This document shows positions 7,402 to 15,501 of a stretch of DNA of 32,623 nt, piece after piece. Source of the stretch: an uncultured Bacilli bacterium (lineage in GTDB: Bacteria; Bacillota_I; Bacilli_A; RFN20; CAG-826). A program made the position numbers and the translations under genes. The notes below the pieces were generated by a model. It saw only the letters and a program-made list of their open reading frames with translations, ran no database searches and had not been told where the DNA came from. Position 1 is the stretch's first letter. The number at the start of each line of letters is the position of its first letter. The stretch is taken from positions 1 to 32,623 of the forward strand of contig CALVOS010000060.1 in NCBI GenBank assembly GCA_944350325.1, written 5' to 3'.

Positions 7402-7436
7402 CCACCCATACATATTTGGGAAAAGGAGACCCGAAC

Positions 7437-9791
7437 ATGAAGAAGAGTGCTGTCGTTCTCTCCATCCTGGCATTCGTGTTCACGGTGCTGGGCATCGTCC
7501 TCGTCGGCGTTACCCCGATGATATCCGCCACGAACTGGCTTCCGACGACCGGCTTCGTCGACACCGCCAAGGCGTTCGCGGATGCCCTGTTCACGAGCAC
7601 GACGCCCTACGTGAACGCCTGGAACCTCATGCTCGAAGGGAACATCTACTGCGTGCTCGCCTTCGCGGCCGCCTGCCTGTTCCTCCTGCTCTGGCTCGTG
7701 CACTTCATCGTGCTTCTCGCCAGGAGGCGCTACCGCTCCCTCTTCCCGAACCTCATGTGGCTCATCTTCGGCGGGGTCACCACCGGTCTTTGCTGCATGG
7801 TTCTCGTCCCGGGCATGCTCCCCCTGAACGATGCGGCCGCCGCTCTCAGCACCAACCTGAACGGCGTCAACGTCTTCCGTTTCCTCTTCCTCGGACAGGG
7901 CGACACCGCCGCGTTCGTGAATTCCGGCGATAACGCCGTCCTCGCCTGGACCCTTGCGATCGTGATGGCCCTTCCGGGCGTCCTTCTCTCCCTCAGCTGG
8001 CTCTTCGGCATCATCTCCGTCTTCTGCGGGATCGGCGACTGCATCGCGAATCCTGGCGCGAAGCGCGACCGGAGCAAGGCCGCTGAGCGCGCCAAGGCCC
8101 GCGCCCTGACCGACGCCCGCCTCCCCGTCGACGACGAGGATGCGCTGAAGGCCGCGATGTACGACGAGCTCGACCCGAGCCCGAAGGCTGCCCCGGCCCC
8201 GGCCGCGGAGAAGAAGCCCGACATCCCCGTCATCGTCCAGCATATCTACTACAACGGCCAGCCGGTTTCCGAGACGAGGACCGAGCCTAAGCCCGAGCCT
8301 AAGCCCGAGCCCGCTCCCGCTCCCGAGGCTAAGGAGCAGGCGAAGGAAATCCACATCCACATCTACAACCCCGCGCCCGACCAGAAGAAGGACCAGCCCA
8401 AGCCCGAGCCCAAGCCCGAGCCCAAGCCCGAGCCCAAGCCCGAGCCCAAGCCTGCTCCCGCCCCCGTCGAGGAGGAGCGTCCGCTCACCGCTCGCGAGCT
8501 CCGCGCCATCATCAAGGAGGCCCTGGACGACCACGACCATCCGGATAACGACCGTCCGCTCACCGACGAGGACGCCAGGCGCCTTGTCCGCGAGGAGCTG
8601 AACGAGTACTACGACAAGGCCGTCCCTGGCATCGAGGACGAGTACATCGAGGACGAGGACGAGGAGCTCCTTACGATCGACGAGCTCCGCGACGTGATCC
8701 ACGACGAGATTGCCGATGCGCTTGCCGGCCTCAAGCCTGCCGAGGAGACTCCCGCGGCGCCTGCGGAGGAGCCGGCCGAGGAACCCGCCAAGGAGGAGGC
8801 CGCCCCTGCGATCAGCAAGGACGACATCAAGGCCATCGTCCAGGAGGAGATCGCTGCCCTCGTGCATTCGCTCGACGAGAAGGAAGCCGCCCGGAAGAGC
8901 GAGGAGGAGAGCAAGGCCGAGGAAGCCAGGAAGGCGAAGGAGTCCGAGGAGGAGGCGGCCAAGGCCGAGGCCGCGAAGAAGGCCGAGGAAGAGGAGGCCG
9001 CCCGCGCCAAGAAGGAAGAGGAGGAGCGCGTCGCCCGCGAGGAGGCCGCCGCCCTCCAGGCCGAGGTCGATAACGCCCAGAACGAGGCGATCCGCGCCCT
9101 CCAGGATTCGCTCCTGAAGGCGGAGGACATCCGCGAGATCCTCAAGGAGGAGCTTGCGAAGCTCCCGCGTCCGGAGCCTGTCGTCATCGAGAAGACGGTC
9201 GAGGCCCCCGCCCCAGCGCCCCAGCCGGAGCCGGAGCCCGAGCCCGAGCCCGCCCCTGCCCCGGAGCCCGCTCCCGCTCCCGTCGTCGAGCCCGCTCCCG
9301 CGCCCGTGCCTGAGGCTCCGAAGCCGAAGATCGTGAGGATTCCCTTCCCCACGAGGCTCCTGAACGCCGACGAGGAGATGAAGGCGAACTACAACGAGCT
9401 GAAGGCCGAGTGCCTGAGCTACGGGCTCAAGAGCCGCCTCAGCAACTCGGGCGACACCTTCCGCCTCCACACCAAGACCTACGTCAAGATCACGGTCGCG
9501 GGCAAGTCGCTGAAGCTCTACTTCGCGCTTGACCCGAAGGACTACGAGCATTCGACGATCCCGGTCAAGGACGCGGGCGGGAAGAACATCTATCGCGAGA
9601 TCCCGGTCGTGTTCAAGGTGAAGAGCGCGCTCTCGATGAAGAGGGCGAAGCAGCTCATCGCTGACGCCTGCGAGCATGACGACCTTGAGCAGGGCAAGAT
9701 CCCGGTCAAGGACTACGCCGCCGAGCTCATCCACTACCGTCCCCAGAACTCCGGGCCTTCGGAGGACGAGGGCGAGGACGAGGAAGAGTAG
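7437..9791 (+). CDS. Large membrane protein with Pro-Glu linker, five short helical repeats, coiled coil and conserved C-terminal domain
   Basis: A 784-residue protein of unknown function. Four membrane spans lie at about residues 5-27, 71-95, 105-127 and 167-195. A long cytoplasmic or surface tail follows: a PEPKPEP linker (about 280-345), a short helix motif of the type LTxxELRxIIKEAL occurring five times (starting near 349, 374, 411, 458 and 559), and a highly charged Ala/Glu/Lys coiled coil (about 480-555). After a second Pro-rich linker comes a compact basic C-terminal domain (about 635-770) containing FPTRLLNADEEMKANYNELKAE and KSLKLYFALDPKDYE. I recall similar C-terminal domains in uncharacterised proteins of gut Bacillota but cannot name one. 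The ATG at 7437 follows AAAAGGAG by 8 bases; an in-frame TTG at 7416 would lie within that leader and is rejected. It is a single-gene unit with its own promoter and terminator. Confidence 0.88.
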   Translation: MKKSAVVLSILAFVFTVLGIVLVGVTPMISATNWLPTTGFVDTAKAFADALFTSTTPYVNAWNLMLEGNIYCVLAFAAACLFLLLWLVHFIVLLARRRYRSLFPNLMWLIFGGVTTGLCCMVLVPGMLPLNDAAAALSTNLNGVNVFRFLFLGQGDTAAFVNSGDNAVLAWTLAIVMALPGVLLSLSWLFGIISVFCGIGDCIANPGAKRDRSKAAERAKARALTDARLPVDDEDALKAAMYDELDPSPKAAPAPAAEKKPDIPVIVQHIYYNGQPVSETRTEPKPEPKPEPAPAPEAKEQAKEIHIHIYNPAPDQKKDQPKPEPKPEPKPEPKPEPKPAPAPVEEERPLTARELRAIIKEALDDHDHPDNDRPLTDEDARRLVREELNEYYDKAVPGIEDEYIEDEDEELLTIDELRDVIHDEIADALAGLKPAEETPAAPAEEPAEEPAKEEAAPAISKDDIKAIVQEEIAALVHSLDEKEAARKSEEESKAEEARKAKESEEEAAKAEAAKKAEEEEAARAKKEEEERVAREEAAALQAEVDNAQNEAIRALQDSLLKAEDIREILKEELAKLPRPEPVVIEKTVEAPAPAPQPEPEPEPEPAPAPEPAPAPVVEPAPAPVPEAPKPKIVRIPFPTRLLNADEEMKANYNELKAECLSYGLKSRLSNSGDTFRLHTKTYVKITVAGKSLKLYFALDPKDYEHSTIPVKDAGGKNIYREIPVVFKVKSALSMKRAKQLIADACEHDDLEQGKIPVKDYAAELIHYRPQNSGPSEDEGEDEEE
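8400..8447 (+). repeat. 12-bp tandem repeat coding for Lys-Pro-Glu-Pro
   Basis: Four perfect copies of AAGCCCGAGCCC in a row, preceded by similar copies near 8287-8310. They encode the rigid Pro-Glu linker of the 784-residue membrane protein (about residues 322-337) and are a likely site of length variation by slippage. Confidence 0.9.
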
Positions 9792-9872: not shown

Positions 9873-10424
9873 CTAAAGGGAGAGCCCTCGCCGATCTAGT
9901 TCCTTTAGATAGAGGGAACGGACTTCCGCGGCGATTTCCGGGAGCGGCCTCCCGTCGGTCTTGATGAGGAAGTCGGTCTTCATCAGCCTCCCGGGAGCAA
10001 ACCCGGTGTCGTCAAGCAGGAGCCTCCTCTCTATCTGCTCCGGAAGGTCTCCCCTTCCCTCCATCCTTCTCCGCCTCTCCTCGCGCGAGGCCTCGAGGAG
10101 GAAGGTCACGACTCTCGGGTTATTGAGGGCTAGGAAACTCTTGAGGCCGTTCGGGTCGACGACCACAGCCTTTCCCTCGCTCACCTGGTCCTTCCCGCAC
10201 CCATAGTAGTTTCCGCCGTAGAAGGTGTGCTCCACGAAGTAGCAGGAGGATAGGAGCTCGAGGAAGCGCTCCTTCGTGACGAAGAAGTAGTCGACCCCGT
10301 CCTTTTCGCCATTCCTCGGGGACCTCGTCGTGTGGGTGACCGCCTTTTGGATCCCGTATTCGTTCCTGAGGATGCGCGCGACCTCCGTCTTGCCGCTCGC
10401 AGAGGCGCCTACCAATATCACCAT
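9873..10424 (-). CDS. Guanylate kinase-like protein
   Basis: A 183-residue P-loop kinase of the guanylate kinase family (GMP + ATP to GDP + ADP). Seen: P-loop GASASGKT at residues 6-13, the GMP-binding block HTTRSPRNGEKDGVDYFFV (31-49), the FVEHTFYGGNYYG segment (63-75) that closes over GMP, and EASREERRRRM for the lid region. It is shorter than typical Gmk (about 200 residues), with the C-terminal helix compact. ATG at 10424 is chosen because the P-loop normally begins about 5 residues after the start; the frame extends further upstream but without family similarity. No Shine-Dalgarno sequence is visible; instead a perfect inverted repeat (10427-10441) lies 2 bases before the ATG. It is divergent from the pilus operon. 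It could be the sole Gmk or a divergent second copy; the window cannot decide. Confidence 0.85.
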   Translation of the reverse strand: MVILVGASASGKTEVARILRNEYGIQKAVTHTTRSPRNGEKDGVDYFFVTKERFLELLSSCYFVEHTFYGGNYYGCGKDQVSEGKAVVVDPNGLKSFLALNNPRVVTFLLEASREERRRRMEGRGDLPEQIERRLLLDDTGFAPGRLMKTDFLIKTDGRPLPEIAAEVRSLYLKELDRRGLSL

Positions 10425-10426
10425 TC

Positions 10427-10450
10427 CCGGATGATATCCGGAACATTCCG
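10427..10450 (-). promoter_or_regulatory. Overlapping inverted repeats in the guanylate-kinase-like gene leader
   Basis: CCGGAT-GAT-ATCCGG (10427-10441, a perfect 6-3-6 repeat) overlaps CGGAA-CA-TTCCG (10439-10450). In the transcript the first would form a hairpin ending 2 bases before the start codon, where the ribosome binding site should be. It could be an RNA control element or a DNA operator. Confidence 0.45.
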
Positions 10451-10455
10451 AAATG

Positions 10456-10483
10456 ACTATCGAGAGCCCCTTCTTTTTTTCAA
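10456..10483 (-). promoter_or_regulatory. Probable promoter of the guanylate-kinase-like gene
   Basis: On the minus strand TTGAAA (10483-10478), a 16-base spacer and GATAGT (10461-10456). It predicts a start near 10449 and a leader of about 25 bases. Confidence 0.45.
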
Positions 10484-10516
10484 GACGGCAGGGCAAGCCG
10501 GTCGCCTTAGTGCCTA

Positions 10517-10522
10517 TATAAT
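10517..10522 (+). promoter_or_regulatory. -10 box of the pilus operon
   Basis: A perfect TATAAT lies 19 bases before the ATG at 10542, with an AAGGAGG ribosome binding site (10528-10534) between. The leader would be only about 13 bases. No -35 box is seen. Confidence 0.6.
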
Positions 10523-10541: not shown

Positions 10542-10907
10542 ATGAATCAAACTCTCCCCTTCTCCCTGAAGGCGGATCCCCGTGGATGCTCGATCCTGGT
10601 CGGAAGCGTGTATCGCCAGGCCCTTGTCGAGATCGGATATAGCCCTGACCGGCACGTGTACGATCTCGACAGGGAGTACATCGATCGCTGCAGGGGGACT
10701 GCCGCGGGACAATTCCTCGCGAGCGTGATCGCGCTATACGACTCCCTTCCCAACATCGAGCGGAAGCTCTTCCTATGCGACTGTCTCGAGCGCGGGCGCC
10801 ACTACGTCTGGTGGTGGTACGAGTGGTTCGACCGCAAGACGTATAGCCGGATGAGCCGGCTCGTCCAGGACAAGGTCAGGCGGCGCTTCGCCCCCGAGGC
10901 GGCGTAG
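10542..10907 (+). CDS. Small soluble protein, possible helix-turn-helix regulator, first gene of pilus operon
   Basis: A 121-residue protein with no membrane segment. I do not recognise the family with certainty. The C-terminal 55 residues have the layout of a sigma-region-4 or phage late-regulator (ArpU/RinA-like) domain: SLPNIERKLFLCDCLE, then a Trp-rich segment VWWWYEWFDRKTYSRMSRL where a turn and recognition helix would be, then a basic last helix VQDKVRRRFAP. The N-terminal half has aromatic and acidic positions of the type seen before such domains. The start at 10542 has a perfect AAGGAGG 7 bases upstream, and the stop is 2 bases before the next ATG, so it is the head of the pilus operon. 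A role as operon regulator is inference from position and layout only. Confidence 0.7.
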   Translation: MNQTLPFSLKADPRGCSILVGSVYRQALVEIGYSPDRHVYDLDREYIDRCRGTAAGQFLASVIALYDSLPNIERKLFLCDCLERGRHYVWWWYEWFDRKTYSRMSRLVQDKVRRRFAPEAA

Positions 10908-10909
10908 GG

Positions 10910-11974
10910 ATGGGAACCTTGTCGAGGGGCCTCCTTCTTTTCCTCATGCCCCTGGGGATATTGCCCGCCTCCTCTTCCGGGATGGCGGAGGGGAGCGTCT
11001 GCCGACCGAGCGCTCCCTGGCTCGTCTTCGACTTCCCGGCCTACGACGGGGGCGACAAGTACGTCTTCCATTATGAGTTCTCCTCCCCGGTGGACCTGGA
11101 CTTCGGCTTCCAGCTATACATAGAGAATCCCAAGAACCCCGCCTCCACCTACGGGAGGAGGGGAAGGCTCGTCCTCGACTACTCGGGCTACCCCGACGAG
11201 TGCGAGGCCGGGGACACGGTGATCGGGATGGGGACGCTGACCTCTTCCTCGATGTCCGTCGTCTATAACCACATGACCTTCATCACCGAGACGAGGGCTG
11301 CGGACGGGACCACCTGCCGCTGGTCCACCGTCTTCGACGTCGGCTACGCGGTTCCCTATCGCTTCGAGTTCTCGTCCAACGGGAACGGCTTCAGCGCGCA
11401 GACGGCCAACGGCGTGGCCGCCAAGGGCGGCATCATCTACACCCAGCCCTGGCGCTTCTACTACCGCGACCTTGAGGAAAGCTACCATAACCCCGAGGCC
11501 GGCATCCTTCCCCTCGGCAAGATGCTCTTCCGGGAGGAGGACTACAAGTACGTGAGCGTCGACTGGGAGCCGAAGACGCTCGTCCTCCGTCTCTTCGATC
11601 ACTTCGACGAGTTCCCTCATTTCGACACCAAGTGGCTTGAGGACGGGCGGGAATGCATCGAGATCCCCCTCCTCACGAAGGATGGCGACTTCGGGGCCTT
11701 CCGCTCGCTCAGGACCAAGGACCTCTATTGCTATTCCAGAGACGGGAAGGAGATGAAGCCTCTCTCCCGCCGTGAGCCGGGGGACTTGATGGGGAATGAG
11801 TTCCGCATTCCTCGGGTAGGCTCCGGCGAGGGGAAGAGATATTCCTTCGAGATATTCGCCGACGGGTTCGGCGAGCTTGACCGCTGGAGCTTCACCTACC
11901 CCTTCGAGGTGACCGTCGACCGCAACTGGTTCGGCTCCTGCCGCACCTCCGCCTGGTGCGTGGAGGAAGTCTGA
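10910..11974 (+). CDS. Secreted protein of unknown function in pilus operon
   Basis: A 354-residue protein with an N-terminal hydrophobic signal segment (about residues 4-23, LSRGLLLFLMPLGILPASSS, likely Sec-cleaved), followed by an all-beta, aromatic-rich extracellular part with no further membrane span. Five or six Cys residues are spread over it (C31, the DECEAGD and TTCRWS segments, DGRECIE, LYCYSR, GSCRTSAWC), suggesting disulphides in the exported product. I cannot name a family. The start ATG at 10910 lies 2 bases after the previous stop, and its own stop overlaps the next start by 1 base (TGATG), so it is firmly part of the pilus operon. It could be a pilus-associated adhesin, a tip protein or an accessory assembly factor; these are guesses from context. 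Confidence 0.82.
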   Translation: MGTLSRGLLLFLMPLGILPASSSGMAEGSVCRPSAPWLVFDFPAYDGGDKYVFHYEFSSPVDLDFGFQLYIENPKNPASTYGRRGRLVLDYSGYPDECEAGDTVIGMGTLTSSSMSVVYNHMTFITETRAADGTTCRWSTVFDVGYAVPYRFEFSSNGNGFSAQTANGVAAKGGIIYTQPWRFYYRDLEESYHNPEAGILPLGKMLFREEDYKYVSVDWEPKTLVLRLFDHFDEFPHFDTKWLEDGRECIEIPLLTKDGDFGAFRSLRTKDLYCYSRDGKEMKPLSRREPGDLMGNEFRIPRVGSGEGKRYSFEIFADGFGELDRWSFTYPFEVTVDRNWFGSCRTSAWCVEEV

Positions 11975-12348
11975 TGCTCCAGTTCCTGTCCGCGGCGATC
12001 CTCATCGCCTTCTCCTTCCAGCTCTTCTCGGCCACAAGGGCCCACGGTGTGCTCGCCAGGACCTGGCACGGGTTTTCCAAGGAGATGCTCTACGGGGCGG
12101 TCGTCAGTCTGCCGAATGCAGAGATCGCCCCCTACTGGGACACGGTCAAGGCAAGGGCCATCGTTGAGGATTACTTCTCGACCTCCTTCGAGGGCTACGG
12201 CGTTACGTGGGAGAGCCTCGTCTCGGGGGACGGCCTTGAAGAGGCTCGCCCGAGCGAGCTGACCATCTCGCTGGAGGCGCGGATGAGCGGCATCCCCCTT
12301 CTCTACGACGAACGGACTTTCCGGATCCAGGAAGGAGAAAAGGCATGA
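11974..12348 (+). CDS. TadE/pseudopilin-like membrane protein
   Basis: A 124-residue protein with one N-terminal membrane helix (about residues 2-20, MLQFLSAAILIAFSFQLFSA) and a small extracellular domain, the form of a TadE/TadF-like minor pilin or type II secretion pseudopilin. There is no classical prepilin peptidase site (Gly before Phe/Met with Glu at +5), so processing is uncertain. The ATG at 11974 is preferred over one at 11956 because GGAGGAAG lies 5-12 bases ahead and it starts exactly at the stop of the preceding gene. The stop overlaps the ATPase gene start by 4 bases (ATGA). The assignment rests on topology and place in the operon rather than sequence similarity. Confidence 0.7.
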   Translation: MLQFLSAAILIAFSFQLFSATRAHGVLARTWHGFSKEMLYGAVVSLPNAEIAPYWDTVKARAIVEDYFSTSFEGYGVTWESLVSGDGLEEARPSELTISLEARMSGIPLLYDERTFRIQEGEKA

Positions 12349-13298
12349 GCGAAAAGGCAGCCATCCAGTATGTGGAGAGGTCCTCTCTCCTCCCGCTCCT
12401 GGAGGACCCCAACGTAAGCGACATCTCCTATGACGGGGAGGCGCTCCACTACCTTCACGCCTTCAAGGGGAGGGCGAGGAGCGAGATCTCGATGTCGTCC
12501 CGCGAGGCGAGGGACTTCCTGATCCAGGTCGCGAACCTCGCGGAGAAGCCCTTCAGCTACAGCGACCCAATCCTCGACGTGAGCTTCGGCCGCTATCGGA
12601 TGAACGCCGTCCATCCCTCCCTCGGAAGGAAGCGCGGCGTGCACGTCCCGACCTTCTCGCTCCGCATTGCCTCCGGCAAAAGCAAGATCGAGGGGGATCC
12701 TCGCTTCTTCCCGGAAGGCGCGGAGGAAATCCTCTCCTCCTGGCTTCTCTCCGGGGAGTCCATCGTCATCGCCGGCATCAGCTCGTCCGGGAAGACGGAG
12801 CTCCAGAAATACCTTCTTTCGCGCCTTGGCGCCAATCGGAAGTGCGTCGTCATCGATAACGTGGACGAGCTTGGACTTCTCGAAGGGTCGGAGGCGGAGA
12901 TCAGCTCCTGGATCACCAGCCCGAGGGCCGGCTACCGGGAGCTTGTCCGGAACGCCCTCCGGCATGATCCCGACTACATCATCCTTGCCGAGGCTAGGGG
13001 AGGGGAGATGCTGGACGCTCTGGTATCCGCAATGAGCGGCCACCCGATCATTCTGAGCGTCCATGGCTCATCCCTTCCGGAGATACCCGAGCGAATGCTG
13101 CGCCTGGCGATGCAAGGTGCGGAAAGGGTGCTCGAGGAGGAAGTCAGGTCCTCCATCGCGCAGAACTTCCGGAACTACGTTCTTCTTGGGCGAGACATCG
13201 GTCCGGACGGGTCGGTCCGTCGCTATCTCAAGGCGCTCGGACGCATGGACGGGGAGGGAAGGATGGAGACCTTGCTGGAAAGGGGGCCGCTATGCTGA
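12345..13298 (+). CDS. TadA/CpaF-type secretion ATPase
   Basis: A 317-residue hexameric type II/IV secretion ATPase that would drive pilus assembly from the cytoplasmic face. Seen in order: the N-terminal domain ending in SFGRYRMNAVHPSL (about 80-92, the family's 'R.n...pp'), Walker A AGISSSGKTE at 143-152, the Asp box VIDNVDEL (169-176), Walker B DPDYIILAEARGGE (208-221) with Glu216, and SVHGSS near 239-243 in place of the usual 'tvHA.s'. The Walker A is atypical, SSSGKT rather than the usual TGSGKTT, and the protein is shorter than usual TadA/CpaF (about 400-480 residues), lacking most of the N-terminal extension. The start ATGA overlaps the previous stop and its stop overlaps the next start by 7 bases. 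The ATPase call is secure; the choice of TadA over other VirB11/GspE relatives rests on the neighbouring TadB/TadC pair. Confidence 0.9.
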   Translation: MSEKAAIQYVERSSLLPLLEDPNVSDISYDGEALHYLHAFKGRARSEISMSSREARDFLIQVANLAEKPFSYSDPILDVSFGRYRMNAVHPSLGRKRGVHVPTFSLRIASGKSKIEGDPRFFPEGAEEILSSWLLSGESIVIAGISSSGKTELQKYLLSRLGANRKCVVIDNVDELGLLEGSEAEISSWITSPRAGYRELVRNALRHDPDYIILAEARGGEMLDALVSAMSGHPIILSVHGSSLPEIPERMLRLAMQGAERVLEEEVRSSIAQNFRNYVLLGRDIGPDGSVRRYLKALGRMDGEGRMETLLERGPLC

Positions 13299-14032
13299 GA
13301 AGAACCCTCGTATCCCTGGCCGTCGCGCTTGGCGCGGCCGCACTCTCCTATCTCGTAAGCGATTCCTTCGCCCTGCCCCTTCTCGTCGGGCCGCTGCTCT
13401 TCCTCTCCTTCTTCTTCCTGGTGATCCCGCCGATCGAGGCGAGGATACTGCGGAGCGAGGCGCGGGGGATGGCCTATCGCTTCGTGAGCGGCTTCCTCAT
13501 CTCCCTCTCGGTCAGCAAGAGCCTTGAGGAAAGCTACGACTCGGCGTCCGCGTTCCTCGAGGGAAGCGCGAAGGAAGCGTCCCTCTCCTGCAAGGAGATG
13601 GAGATCCTCGAGAGGCTTCGCTACCTCCGCGGCACATTCCGCGCCTCCTTCTACGACATGTTCTGCTCGATGATGGCGATCTGGCAGGAGCGCGGGGGAG
13701 ATGTCCTGGACCTGATGGACCCGCTCCTCCGCGAGGCAACCTCCGCCGAGGAGGCCGGAAGATCCCTCGATGCCCTGAGAATCCGCCAAGGGACGCAGTT
13801 CCTGATCCTCTGGGGCATGAGCCTCCTTGTGCTTCTCGCGGTCCGCCTCGGGCTATCCTCCTTCTACGAGACATTGAGCGGATCGCTCCCCTTCCTTCTC
13901 GTCACCCTCCTCTACTTCCTTGCCCTCGCCTTCGCCTTCGTCTTGTTCGCCCGCATCGTGGGCGATGAACCCAATCGAGGTGACAGAAATGCTACGAAAA
14001 AGAGAAAGCCACGCAAAGCCAAGGCGAATTGA
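13292..14032 (+). CDS. TadB-like platform protein (type II secretion F family)
   Basis: A 246-residue inner-membrane protein with two N-terminal spans (about residues 5-22 and 28-46), a cytoplasmic helical domain (about 50-165) and a C-terminal hydrophobic region with two spans (about 166-190 and 200-226), the layout of TadB. The helical part has the F-domain pattern: SGFLISLSVSKSLEESYDSA and later MMAIWQERGGDVLDLMDPLLREAT, equivalent to the 'l...G.sl..Al..' and 'GG.l...L..ia' helices. It would pair with the next protein as the platform on which the ATPase works. It starts 7 bases inside the ATPase gene, with GGAAAGGGGG just upstream, and overlaps the next gene by 44 bases. The tail ends in a very basic KKRKPRKAK stretch, likely cytoplasmic. 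Confidence 0.85.
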   Translation: MLRRTLVSLAVALGAAALSYLVSDSFALPLLVGPLLFLSFFFLVIPPIEARILRSEARGMAYRFVSGFLISLSVSKSLEESYDSASAFLEGSAKEASLSCKEMEILERLRYLRGTFRASFYDMFCSMMAIWQERGGDVLDLMDPLLREATSAEEAGRSLDALRIRQGTQFLILWGMSLLVLLAVRLGLSSFYETLSGSLPFLLVTLLYFLALAFAFVLFARIVGDEPNRGDRNATKKRKPRKAKAN

Positions 14033-14651
14033 AAGATTTCTTCTTCCTGCACTCGGGAACCTCCTCTTTATCGGGGCGATCCTCGCCTCCCAGCTCCTCC
14101 TCGGGAACCTGTTCCTGACCTTGACCCTCTCCCTCCTCCTTCTCATCGTCGACTACTTCCTCCTAAGCGAGGGGAGAAGGAAGAAGGAGAGGGCCATCGT
14201 CCGTCTCGAGAGCGACTTCTCGGAAAGCTTCCGCTGCTTCAGCGTCTTCGTGGAAACGGGAATGACTCCCTACCAGGCCCTGCGGGAAACGCTTCCCTTC
14301 TCAAGCCCTGCCCTTCGCGAGAGGATCGAAGCCCTTCTCCACGAGATTGACGAGGACAAGTCCGTGTCCCCTTACGTCCGCTTCAGCGAGGGCTTCCGCT
14401 CCCTTGCCGTCCGCCAGGTGATGATCGCCATCCATCGCATGGCGACGGAGGGAGGGGGCGAAGCCTACCTCAGGCAGTTCCGCTCCCTCTTCCAGTCCTA
14501 TGGGGACGAAAGCCGGAAGAAGGCCGCCCTCGACCTTGACTCGAGGATGGGCATGGCCTCGTTCCTTCCCCTCGTCGCCTCCGCTCTCGTGATGGCGCTC
14601 ATCGCGATCGGCATCGTCTCCGTCCTGGGGGTTGCGATCAATGGGCTCTAA
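13989..14651 (+). CDS. TadC-like platform protein (type II secretion F family)
   Basis: A 220-residue membrane protein with two N-terminal spans (about residues 18-38 and 40-60), a cytoplasmic F-type helical domain and a C-terminal span (about 190-218). The domain shows SFRCFSVFVETGMTPYQALRETLPF (a 'l...ETG.s..qAL' motif typical of this family) and IAIHRMATEGGGEAYLRQFRSLF, followed by the EAR-like segment YGDESRKKAALDLDSRMGM (family 'R...ae....k'). It forms the second half of the TadBC pair. ATG 13989 is chosen since GAGGTG lies 6 bases ahead (13977-13982); ATGs at 13965 and before lack such a site. It overlaps the TadB-like gene by 44 bases and the next gene by 11, so translation is coupled. 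Confidence 0.87.
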   Translation: MLRKRESHAKPRRIERFLLPALGNLLFIGAILASQLLLGNLFLTLTLSLLLLIVDYFLLSEGRRKKERAIVRLESDFSESFRCFSVFVETGMTPYQALRETLPFSSPALRERIEALLHEIDEDKSVSPYVRFSEGFRSLAVRQVMIAIHRMATEGGGEAYLRQFRSLFQSYGDESRKKAALDLDSRMGMASFLPLVASALVMALIAIGIVSVLGVAINGL

Positions 14652-14982
14652 GCTGGGCTTCCTCCTTTCTCTCTTCTTCGTGATCGGACTGATGGGGCTA
14701 TCCGGCGATCTCGCCTCCATCCAGGCCATCCAGACGAGCCTGGACGCGGCCGGGATCACCGCGGCGAGGAGGATCGCCCTCGTCGGGGGCATCGACAGCG
14801 AGACCCGCTCCCTTGTGAACGAGGAGTGCGGAGGGACCATCATCCCTCTGGAGGATGATCCGGTCAGGATCGGCGACATATTCCGCTTCGCGATCGAAAA
14901 GGAATACCAGCCCTTCGTCCTATCGCCGGAACCGGTATTGGTGCGGATCGAGCGCTCGGCCGTCATCGGCTACCTCGATTGA
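14641..14982 (+). CDS. Second TadE/pseudopilin-like protein
   Basis: A 113-residue protein with one N-terminal membrane helix (about residues 3-23, KLGFLLSLFFVIGLMGLSG) followed by an amphipathic helix, SIQAIQTSLDAAGITAARRI, then a small extracellular domain. The helix that follows the membrane segment, with repeated Gln/Ala/Leu and 'LD..a.taa..ia..Ggi', is the pattern of TadE-like pseudopilins, in which the long N-terminal helix packs into the pilus. It lacks a canonical prepilin peptidase site. ATG 14641 is used; a TTG at 14632 in frame is possible. It overlaps the TadC-like gene by 11 bases and is followed after 26 bases by the pilin gene. Confidence 0.75.
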   Translation: MGSKLGFLLSLFFVIGLMGLSGDLASIQAIQTSLDAAGITAARRIALVGGIDSETRSLVNEECGGTIIPLEDDPVRIGDIFRFAIEKEYQPFVLSPEPVLVRIERSAVIGYLD

Positions 14983-15008
14983 GCATAGATGAAGAAAGGA
15001 GGTAAAGG

Positions 15009-15179
15009 ATGTCGGAACTCAAAGGCCAGCTCCTGGGCATGGTCCTCGTCCTCGCCGTCTTCGGCGTGGTCGCGGCCGCCCTGGTACCCGCCTTCCAGAA
15101 GACGGCGGACCAGCTCGAGAGCGAGATGGGCGTGAACGTCTCCCAGGTCGAGTCGGAATATGTCGAAGCCAGCATCTAG
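15009..15179 (+). CDS. Small pilin (Flp-like), 56 residues
   Basis: A short gene missed by a 60-residue cut-off. It has a near-perfect ribosome binding site, AAAGGAGG at 14995-15002, 6 bases before ATG, the strongest in the operon, as expected for a major structural subunit. The product begins MSELKGQLLGMVLVLAVFG, continues as one uninterrupted hydrophobic helix to about residue 30 (VVAAALVPAF) and ends in a hydrophilic tail of about 26 residues with QLESEMGVNVSQ. This is the form of Flp-type type IVb pilins: very small, a short polar leader ending in Lys-Gly (residues 5-6, probable cleavage after Gly6), a hydrophobic helix and an acidic tail. The usual Glu at +5 after cleavage is absent. It is the last gene of the operon, before a terminator hairpin. 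Function is inferred from size, form and place. Confidence 0.8.
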   Translation: MSELKGQLLGMVLVLAVFGVVAAALVPAFQKTADQLESEMGVNVSQVESEYVEASI

Positions 15180-15264: not shown

Positions 15265-15501
15265 ATGCCCAGCACCGTTGAAGAAATCCGTGAAACGCTT
15301 GCGAAGCGCTGCAAGAAGGAGACCATTGCCGACGACACCGCCCTCAAGGACCTCGGACTCGATTCCCTGGATGTCGTTGAGATGTGCCTCGACTTCGAGG
15401 ACAAGTACGGCATCACCTTCGAGACCGCGGAGCTCGGCGAGCTGAAGACGGTCAGCGACCTCCTCGCGAAGATCGACGCGAAGCTCGCCGGGAAGAACTG
15501 A
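15265..15501 (+). CDS. acpP: Acyl carrier protein
   Basis: A 78-residue acidic protein of the acyl carrier family. It holds the 4'-phosphopantetheine attachment motif LGLDSLDVVEM with the modified Ser at about residue 38 and a helix-III segment LGELKTVSDLLAKID. It carries growing acyl chains on the thioester arm in type II fatty acid synthesis and supplies acyl groups for phospholipid synthesis. The start has a strong AAAAGGAG site 6 bases upstream and a TATAAT box. It is a single-gene unit; no other fatty acid genes are near, which is unusual since acpP is often next to fabF or rnc. It is followed by a G4/C4 hairpin (15512-15524) with only a short T run. Confidence 0.96.
   Translation: MPSTVEEIRETLAKRCKKETIADDTALKDLGLDSLDVVEMCLDFEDKYGITFETAELGELKTVSDLLAKIDAKLAGKN

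Follow-up and report, generated by a model that had tools for sequence, protein, structure and literature searches.

We analysed a 32,623-nucleotide stretch of DNA from an uncultured member of the gut Bacilli (contig CALVOS010000060.1; this whole stretch is referred to as the window), in which eight open reading frames lie in a head-to-tail array on the plus strand at positions 10542–15179 (Table 1). The array has the core of a pilus operon of the Tad type, and its products include an assembly ATPase, a pair of membrane platform proteins and a short pilin-like subunit. The junctions between genes were overlaps or 2-bp gaps, save for 26 bp ahead of the pilin-like gene, which was preceded by a strong Shine–Dalgarno sequence (aaaggaggtaaaggATG). 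A promoter scan of the plus strand returned nothing convincing; a TATAAT at about 10517–10522 was spotted by eye and had no good −35 element.

Table 1. Genes of the Tad-like operon in the window
Gene or product	Positions	Strand	Description
g1	10542-10907	+	Soluble 121-aa protein, first operon gene
g2	10910-11974	+	Secreted 354-aa all-beta protein, candidate adhesin
g3	11974-12348	+	124 aa, single N-terminal membrane helix, pseudopilin-like by layout
TadA/CpaF-type assembly ATPase	12345-13298	+	317 aa, PF00437
TadB-like membrane platform protein	13292-14032	+	246 aa, assigned by hhalign
TadC-like membrane platform protein	13965-14651	+	Start ATG 13965 or 13989; assigned by hhalign
g7, pseudopilin-like	14641-14982	+	113 aa; AlphaFold2 model, hhalign
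Pilin-like subunit	15009-15179	+	56 aa, one membrane helix, variable tail

A preliminary description of the window, made from its sequence, had suggested a survey of related genomes for conservation of the gene order. The survey comprised 54 loci, namely the window, 13 genomes of uncultured Bacilli retrieved by a search for relatives and 40 loci picked across genera. Order and strand were identical in all 54 (about 30 genera), the 13 relative genomes included, and all eight genes were present in 48 of them; genes missing from the incomplete loci were mostly accounted for by contig ends or were the fast-evolving g1 and g2. The order persisted at ATPase identities as low as about 40 %. Using a threshold of E≤1e-10, the operon ATPase was found in 180 of the 245 genomes sampled from the order (117 of the 150 of high quality), and exclusion of three weak matches from other families (1e-11 to 1e-13) left 177 operon-bearing genomes. 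The class-wide search for g7 was positive in 47 of 395 genomes, almost all of them from the window's own family. Such recurrence with fixed order and strand is far beyond chance; the eight-gene operon is real and under strong selection.

The ATPase, the platform proteins and their plasmid relatives

The ATPase matched PF00437 (5.6e-15) and, as the best NCBIfam model, TIGR03819 (4e-21, though under its cut-off), as well as the FlaI and CpaF structures, and its profile aligned with canonical TadA of sister families with an hhalign probability of 99.5 % (8e-23). The Walker A, Walker B and histidine boxes were invariant in an alignment of 14 sequences, and the protein is a P-loop ATPase of the TadA/FlaI/VirB11 type. 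Its Walker A motif had been described as atypical, but the sequence GISSSGKT conforms to GxxxxGK[ST]; the unusual part is the ELQKYL that follows it, where canonical TadA of sister families has TTLLN. The TadC-like protein aligned with canonical TadC at 93.5 %, PF00482 being matched by 2 of 11 members, while the TadB-like protein reached just 42 % with canonical TadB. Taken together with the pilin-like small gene, the ATPase and the TadC-like protein bear out the Tad-type core proposed at the outset. The preliminary description had named a grouping of the ATPase with VirB11 as evidence against a pilus machine. The ATPase scored 67 bits against the VirB11 model; in the phylogenetic tree, which has some long branches, it fell outside VirB11/TrbB, the gut sequences forming with plasmid sequences (see below) and two further plasmid ATPases a single clade (support 100/99) that was separate from canonical TadA as well.

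Searching plasmids with the ATPase brought up a Bacillus pumilus plasmid and Enterococcus faecium pZB18, and from these the search was extended to 155 plasmid records. Most came from Bacillus, Listeria and Enterococcus, and 94 were typed as conjugative, pLS20 (NC_015148) among them. These plasmids carry a block that encodes, in order, a large secreted adhesin (of the thioester 'Tie' or the isopeptide type), small proteins, a transmembrane protein of ~126 aa, the ATPase, a TadB-like and a TadC-like protein, a g7-like protein of ~118 aa and, in most, a transmembrane peptide of ~47–50 aa. When the products of the gut operon were aligned with their plasmid equivalents, hhalign gave 100 % (8e-57) for the ATPase, 94.5 % for the TadB-like protein, 94.2 % for the TadC-like protein and 96.8 % (2e-10) for g7; in the background matrix, off-diagonal profile pairs were near zero, except for the expected TadB/TadC cross-match. 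These values indicate that the four genes are homologous to the block of the conjugative plasmids and stand in the same order, and that the plasmid adhesin–ATPase–TadB–TadC block, not canonical Tad or VirB11, is the closest relative of the operon. By position, g3 occupies the place of the ~126-aa transmembrane gene. Related ATPases were also found in further families of Bacilli, and the idea of a lineage-specific reduced form, put forward in the preliminary description, does not agree with these findings. One of these families (f17) has a similar layout with additional RcpC-like and TadZ-like genes and a different small transmembrane peptide (MKxATGELNLTVIT...); this second chromosomal variant (six loci) also encodes a secreted protein of ~1000 aa and lies in genomes mostly with a prepilin peptidase.

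The Tie adhesin of the pLS20 block is required for efficient mating and is not anchored by sortase (PMC8092201), and in papers on this plasmid the ATPase is named VirB11 and Gram-positive conjugation is stated to have no pili (PMC8092201, PMC11730352, PMC8014075). No paper calling the plasmid block a Tad-like pilus was found in the open literature, subscription journals and preprints lying outside the search. Three tandem genes for a 47–50-aa single-helix protein lie directly behind the g7-like gene of pLS20 (locus L187:9645-10170), and the B. pumilus plasmid likewise has three behind its g7-like gene (locus L182:8154-8703), encoding identical proteins. No prepilin motif was found in the small plasmid peptides. 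Such tandem copies look like a raised dosage of a major structural subunit; the plasmids concerned are said to be pilus-less.

The gut operon thus shares with the block of pLS20, pZB18 and the Listeria and B. pumilus plasmids a GKTELQK-containing ATPase, the gene order and four homologous genes, and, by position and layout, a single-helix transmembrane peptide of ~47–56 aa near the end. The plasmid adhesins are large thioester or isopeptide proteins, whereas g2 is an immunoglobulin (Ig)-like protein of 354 aa; the plasmid block lies inside a transfer operon, while the gut operon stands alone on the chromosome; and plasmid hosts such as Bacillus have ComC, in contrast to the gut genomes, most of which lack an A24 prepilin peptidase. 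With the canonical Gram-positive Tad/Flp systems (those of sister families and of Bulleidia extructa, PMC12786226) the operon has in common a TadA-type ATPase, a putative TadB/TadC pair, a small pilin-like protein, TadE/F-like minor proteins and the lack of a secretin. Canonical loci, however, have an Flp pilin with G↓QALVEY, TadE/TadF (PF07811), TadZ and often a TadV/A24 peptidase, none of which is present in the gut operon, and its ATPase is shorter (317 versus ~445 aa) and belongs to another clade. TadZ was found neither in the operon nor in the flanks of the loci examined, the whole genome not having been searched for it, and no secretin (RcpA) was found in the operon, the genome again not having been searched. 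A secretin is not expected in monoderms, and the lack of one, noted in the preliminary description, is normal for such a cell.

The pilin-like subunit, its companions and the prepilin peptidase

The small gene at the end of the operon, on whose conservation in relatives the preliminary description had made its proposal depend, was recovered as 47 distinct homologues. In the window the product begins with MSELKGQLLGM..., and the family start, M[S/G]E[I/L]KGQ(L/I)LG, was its best-conserved part: E3 and G6 were found in 47 of 47 sequences, K5 in 46 and Q7 in 44, while conservation collapsed beyond residue 30. The length of the N-terminus was fixed, with six residues ahead of Q7. None of the 47 carried an acidic residue at position +5 after KG or anywhere in residues 7–28, in contrast to the Flp pilins of sister families, which read G↓QALVEY and had E5 in 6 of 6.

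The preliminary description had allowed for a prepilin peptidase encoded elsewhere in the genome. A search for the A24 peptidase (PF01478) found none in the genome to which the window belongs. In the order sample, 13 of 245 genomes gave a match, which for 12 exceeded the family cut-off; the peptidase was absent from 167 of the 177 operon-bearing genomes (94 %) and present in 10, and among those of high quality only 4 of 114 were positive. A single-contig genome (1,061,998 bp, 99 % complete, with the entire operon) had no A24 peptidase by hmmsearch --max, and on inspection its multi-helix GxGD proteins resembled LspA, ComEC, transporters and other proteins. The archaeal-type peptidase (PF06847) gave no match over the cut-off in 12 genomes. 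As a positive control, the PF01478 search was applied to a related family with small genomes and found the peptidase in 21 of 22 (Fisher p 7e-20), indicating that its absence from the operon-bearing genomes is not due to a weak search. A prepilin peptidase encoded elsewhere was consequently rejected for the window's genome, the single-contig genome and 94 % of the operon-bearing genomes. Where a peptidase was present, the clusters inspected were separate canonical type IV pilus clusters (PilC, PilD and class III pilins with 'KGFTLVE'), and in two peptidase-bearing genomes the Tad-like pilin was unchanged. In the A24 peptidases of the few genomes of the family that bear type IV pili, GxAD (GMAD, GLAD) replaced the GxGD active-site motif (four loci).

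Judged from its sequences, the operon is a deeply conserved, peptidase-free variant of a Tad-type machine. Two known systems resemble it in part. The Tad-like loci of Clostridia (Imam et al. 2011, PMC3244431) also have Tad genes without a recognizable prepilin signal, but they retain tadV, tadZ and rcpC, and no pilin has been identified in them, whereas the gut operon has a conserved pilin-like gene in a genome devoid of the peptidase. The MSH pilus locus (Denise et al. 2019, PMC6668835) likewise has no prepilin peptidase gene; however, a genome with MSH pili invariably has a peptidase that belongs to another system, and the genome of the gut operon does not.

The g2 product has an N-terminal signal-like stretch and was the quickest-evolving large gene. 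Its AlphaFold2 model (predicted local distance difference test, pLDDT, 80) was all beta, with two Ig/fibronectin (Fn)-like sandwiches, and Foldseek matched it to Ig/Fn-like regions of transglutaminases and streptococcal surface proteases (E ~3e-4, TM-score only ~0.25). The C-terminal tail was conserved and Cys-containing (GxCxxxxYCVEE-like), and a comparison of g2 with the C-terminus of the Tie adhesins gave no match. The Tie C-termini (ten plasmid loci) carry a conserved PxGW(S/T)xxDIxWLxK tail of their own despite otherwise diverse adhesins, and the two tails are possible docking signals to a filament or platform. For g7, the AlphaFold2 model (pLDDT 91.4) contained a long N-terminal helix (residues 2–48) followed by a helix and three strands, a modelled layout that appears pilin-like; Foldseek against the PDB returned no match below E 0.6. 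Neither g7 nor g3 matched TadE/F profiles, and PF07811 was not found in the window's genome. The g1 gene was in place in 49 of the 54 loci by hmmsearch, with identities of 15–96 % among relatives and rapid divergence beyond the close ones. It had no Pfam or NCBIfam match, and its earlier designation as a possible regulator was rejected, no library offering a family match in support.

A predicted filament and competing explanations

We consider it probable, with some reserve, that the operon encodes a Tad-like filament which displays a secreted Ig-like adhesin and is built from unprocessed pilins. A hexameric ATPase and the TadB/TadC platform would extrude the 56-aa single-helix pilin as a thin filament, which would be started or capped by g7 and g3 in the role of minor (pseudo)pilins, and the secreted g2 would be held outside, on the filament or at its base, as the adhesin. 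The leader of the pilin would not be removed, and mature subunits would retain (M)[S/G]-E-[I/L]-K-G-Q; the invariant E3 may take over the charge-pairing role of the usual E5, pairing with the N-terminus of a neighbour or with K5, and the G6-x3-G10 pair would pack helices against each other. With neither a peptidase in the genome nor an E5 in the subunit, use of the pilin with an intact short N-terminus is the simplest reading. We infer filament formation, an unprocessed pilin, a role of g2 as adhesin and an adhesive function, the last most likely being surface or cell–cell adhesion, by analogy with Tie. The gut operon is a stand-alone chromosomal member of a subfamily whose remaining members are the 'Tie adhesin + VirB11/TadA' blocks of pLS20-type conjugative plasmids.

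A broader claim is made more tentatively, and we hold it to fall somewhat short of an even chance: that these systems constitute a branch of the type IV filament superfamily with unprocessed pilins and no peptidase, forming a near-universal surface organelle in the gut Bacilli family and also, unrecognized, the adhesive 'sex pilus' of Gram-positive conjugative plasmids such as pLS20, pZB18 and those of Listeria. In type IV filament assembly, removal of the leader by a dedicated peptidase counts as a universal step (review PMC10191384). If a peptidase-free machine is true, the peptidase would be dispensable, and the machine would tell what substitutes for the glutamate at +5. The homology to the pLS20 block makes it testable how Gram-positive conjugation reaches recipients without the pili it is said to lack, and how Tie stays on the surface without sortase, a question raised in PMC8092201. 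For the uncultured gut family, the operon is a concrete candidate for a surface structure.

Several observations weigh against an unprocessed, adhesin-bearing filament. No filament has been seen so far, and most of the genomes surveyed are metagenome-assembled. Homology of the pilin was detectable neither to Flp nor to the plasmid peptides of ~47–50 aa, and g3 showed no significant profile similarity to the plasmid ~126-aa transmembrane protein; because homology is not detectable, the roles of the pilin and g3 were assigned from layout and position. The hhalign probabilities are rough where the profiles are shallow. Moreover, g2 had no thioester, isopeptide or other adhesin family match, and its fold matches were weak and generic. 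Finally, the almost invariant K5-G6-Q7 coincides exactly with (K/R)G↓Q, the signature by which cleavable class III leaders are recognized, and could mean that cleavage occurs there by an unknown protease. It is identical to the KG↓Q of the Flp/TadE proteins of sister families, which favours an ordinary Tad/Flp pilus with pilin cleavage at KG↓Q, the enzyme being a peptidase outside the A24 family, or a highly diverged one, encoded elsewhere. We regard this as rather unlikely, given that 94 % of the operon-bearing genomes and the single-contig genome lack A24, that no PF06847 match exceeded the cut-off, and that an N-terminus fixed at six residues with an invariant E3 and no E5 is unlike normal leaders; the G6-x3-G10 spacing would in addition provide a structural reason for the glycine G6.

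It is unlikely, in our estimate, that the operon encodes a competence pilus, taking up DNA in place of ComG and passing it to a ComEA/ComEC importer encoded elsewhere, even though ComEA–ComEC–HolA sets are present in the window's genome (L116:890-3479) and in the single-contig genome (G093:663922-666515), the window's genome has one secretion ATPase, and Flp-type pili serve competence in Micrococcus luteus (PMC4322843). ComEC was found in 13 of 20 family members without the pilus ATPase, and was no rarer there than overall (159 of 245); family f5 retains ComEC with almost no ATPase match, and the rapid evolution of g2, a secreted Ig-like protein, points to contact at the surface. Co-occurrence with ComEC was rejected as support for DNA uptake, there being no association with the operon. 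Despite the ComEA–ComEC–HolA order, a search of these genomes yielded no ComG-type operon.

Another possibility involves no extended filament: a short pseudopilus, or a secretion piston, would export g2 in a type II-like manner. This would account for a secreted protein that is invariably encoded in the operon and whose C-terminal tail is conserved, as well as for the lack of any filament seen. We think this improbable: g2 carries a Sec-type signal stretch of its own, and in a monoderm cell there is no second membrane to cross, while the small hydrophobic subunit, its strong Shine–Dalgarno sequence and the tandem copies in the plasmid relatives suggest a major structural subunit. Far less credible still is a part in a conjugation (type IV secretion) system with a VirB11-like ATPase. 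The relatives do sit in plasmid transfer operons, and the VirB11 score has been given above, but the ATPase lies outside VirB11/TrbB, VirD4 was absent over the cut-off from 9 of 12 operon-bearing genomes, the single-contig one included, the VirD4 of the window's genome is on another contig, and the operon shows vertical, chromosomal synteny, with a guanylate-kinase-like gene on one side and an acyl carrier protein gene on the other. A conjugation role was rejected on the basis of the VirD4 count and of an ATPase that is not VirB11. The VirD4-type coupling protein of the window's genome (contig C68:13746-14822), which also occurs in two further genomes, would belong to a separate conjugative element.

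Genes flanking the operon

Upstream of the operon, positions 7416–9791 encode a membrane protein of 791 aa, whose long middle part is rich in Pro, Glu and Ala; its gene stays near the operon in 13 of 13 related loci and in the single-contig genome and may be linked to it. The guanylate-kinase-like gene (9873–10496, minus strand) sits between this gene and the operon. On the other side, the acyl carrier protein gene (15265–15501) lay directly 3' of the pilin gene in 12 of 13 related loci, the remaining one being cut by a contig end, and in the window it is followed by tRNA-Asn and tRNA-Glu. Among genomes carrying one genus label (the window, the single-contig genome and further loci), G+C content ranged from 36 % to 62 %.

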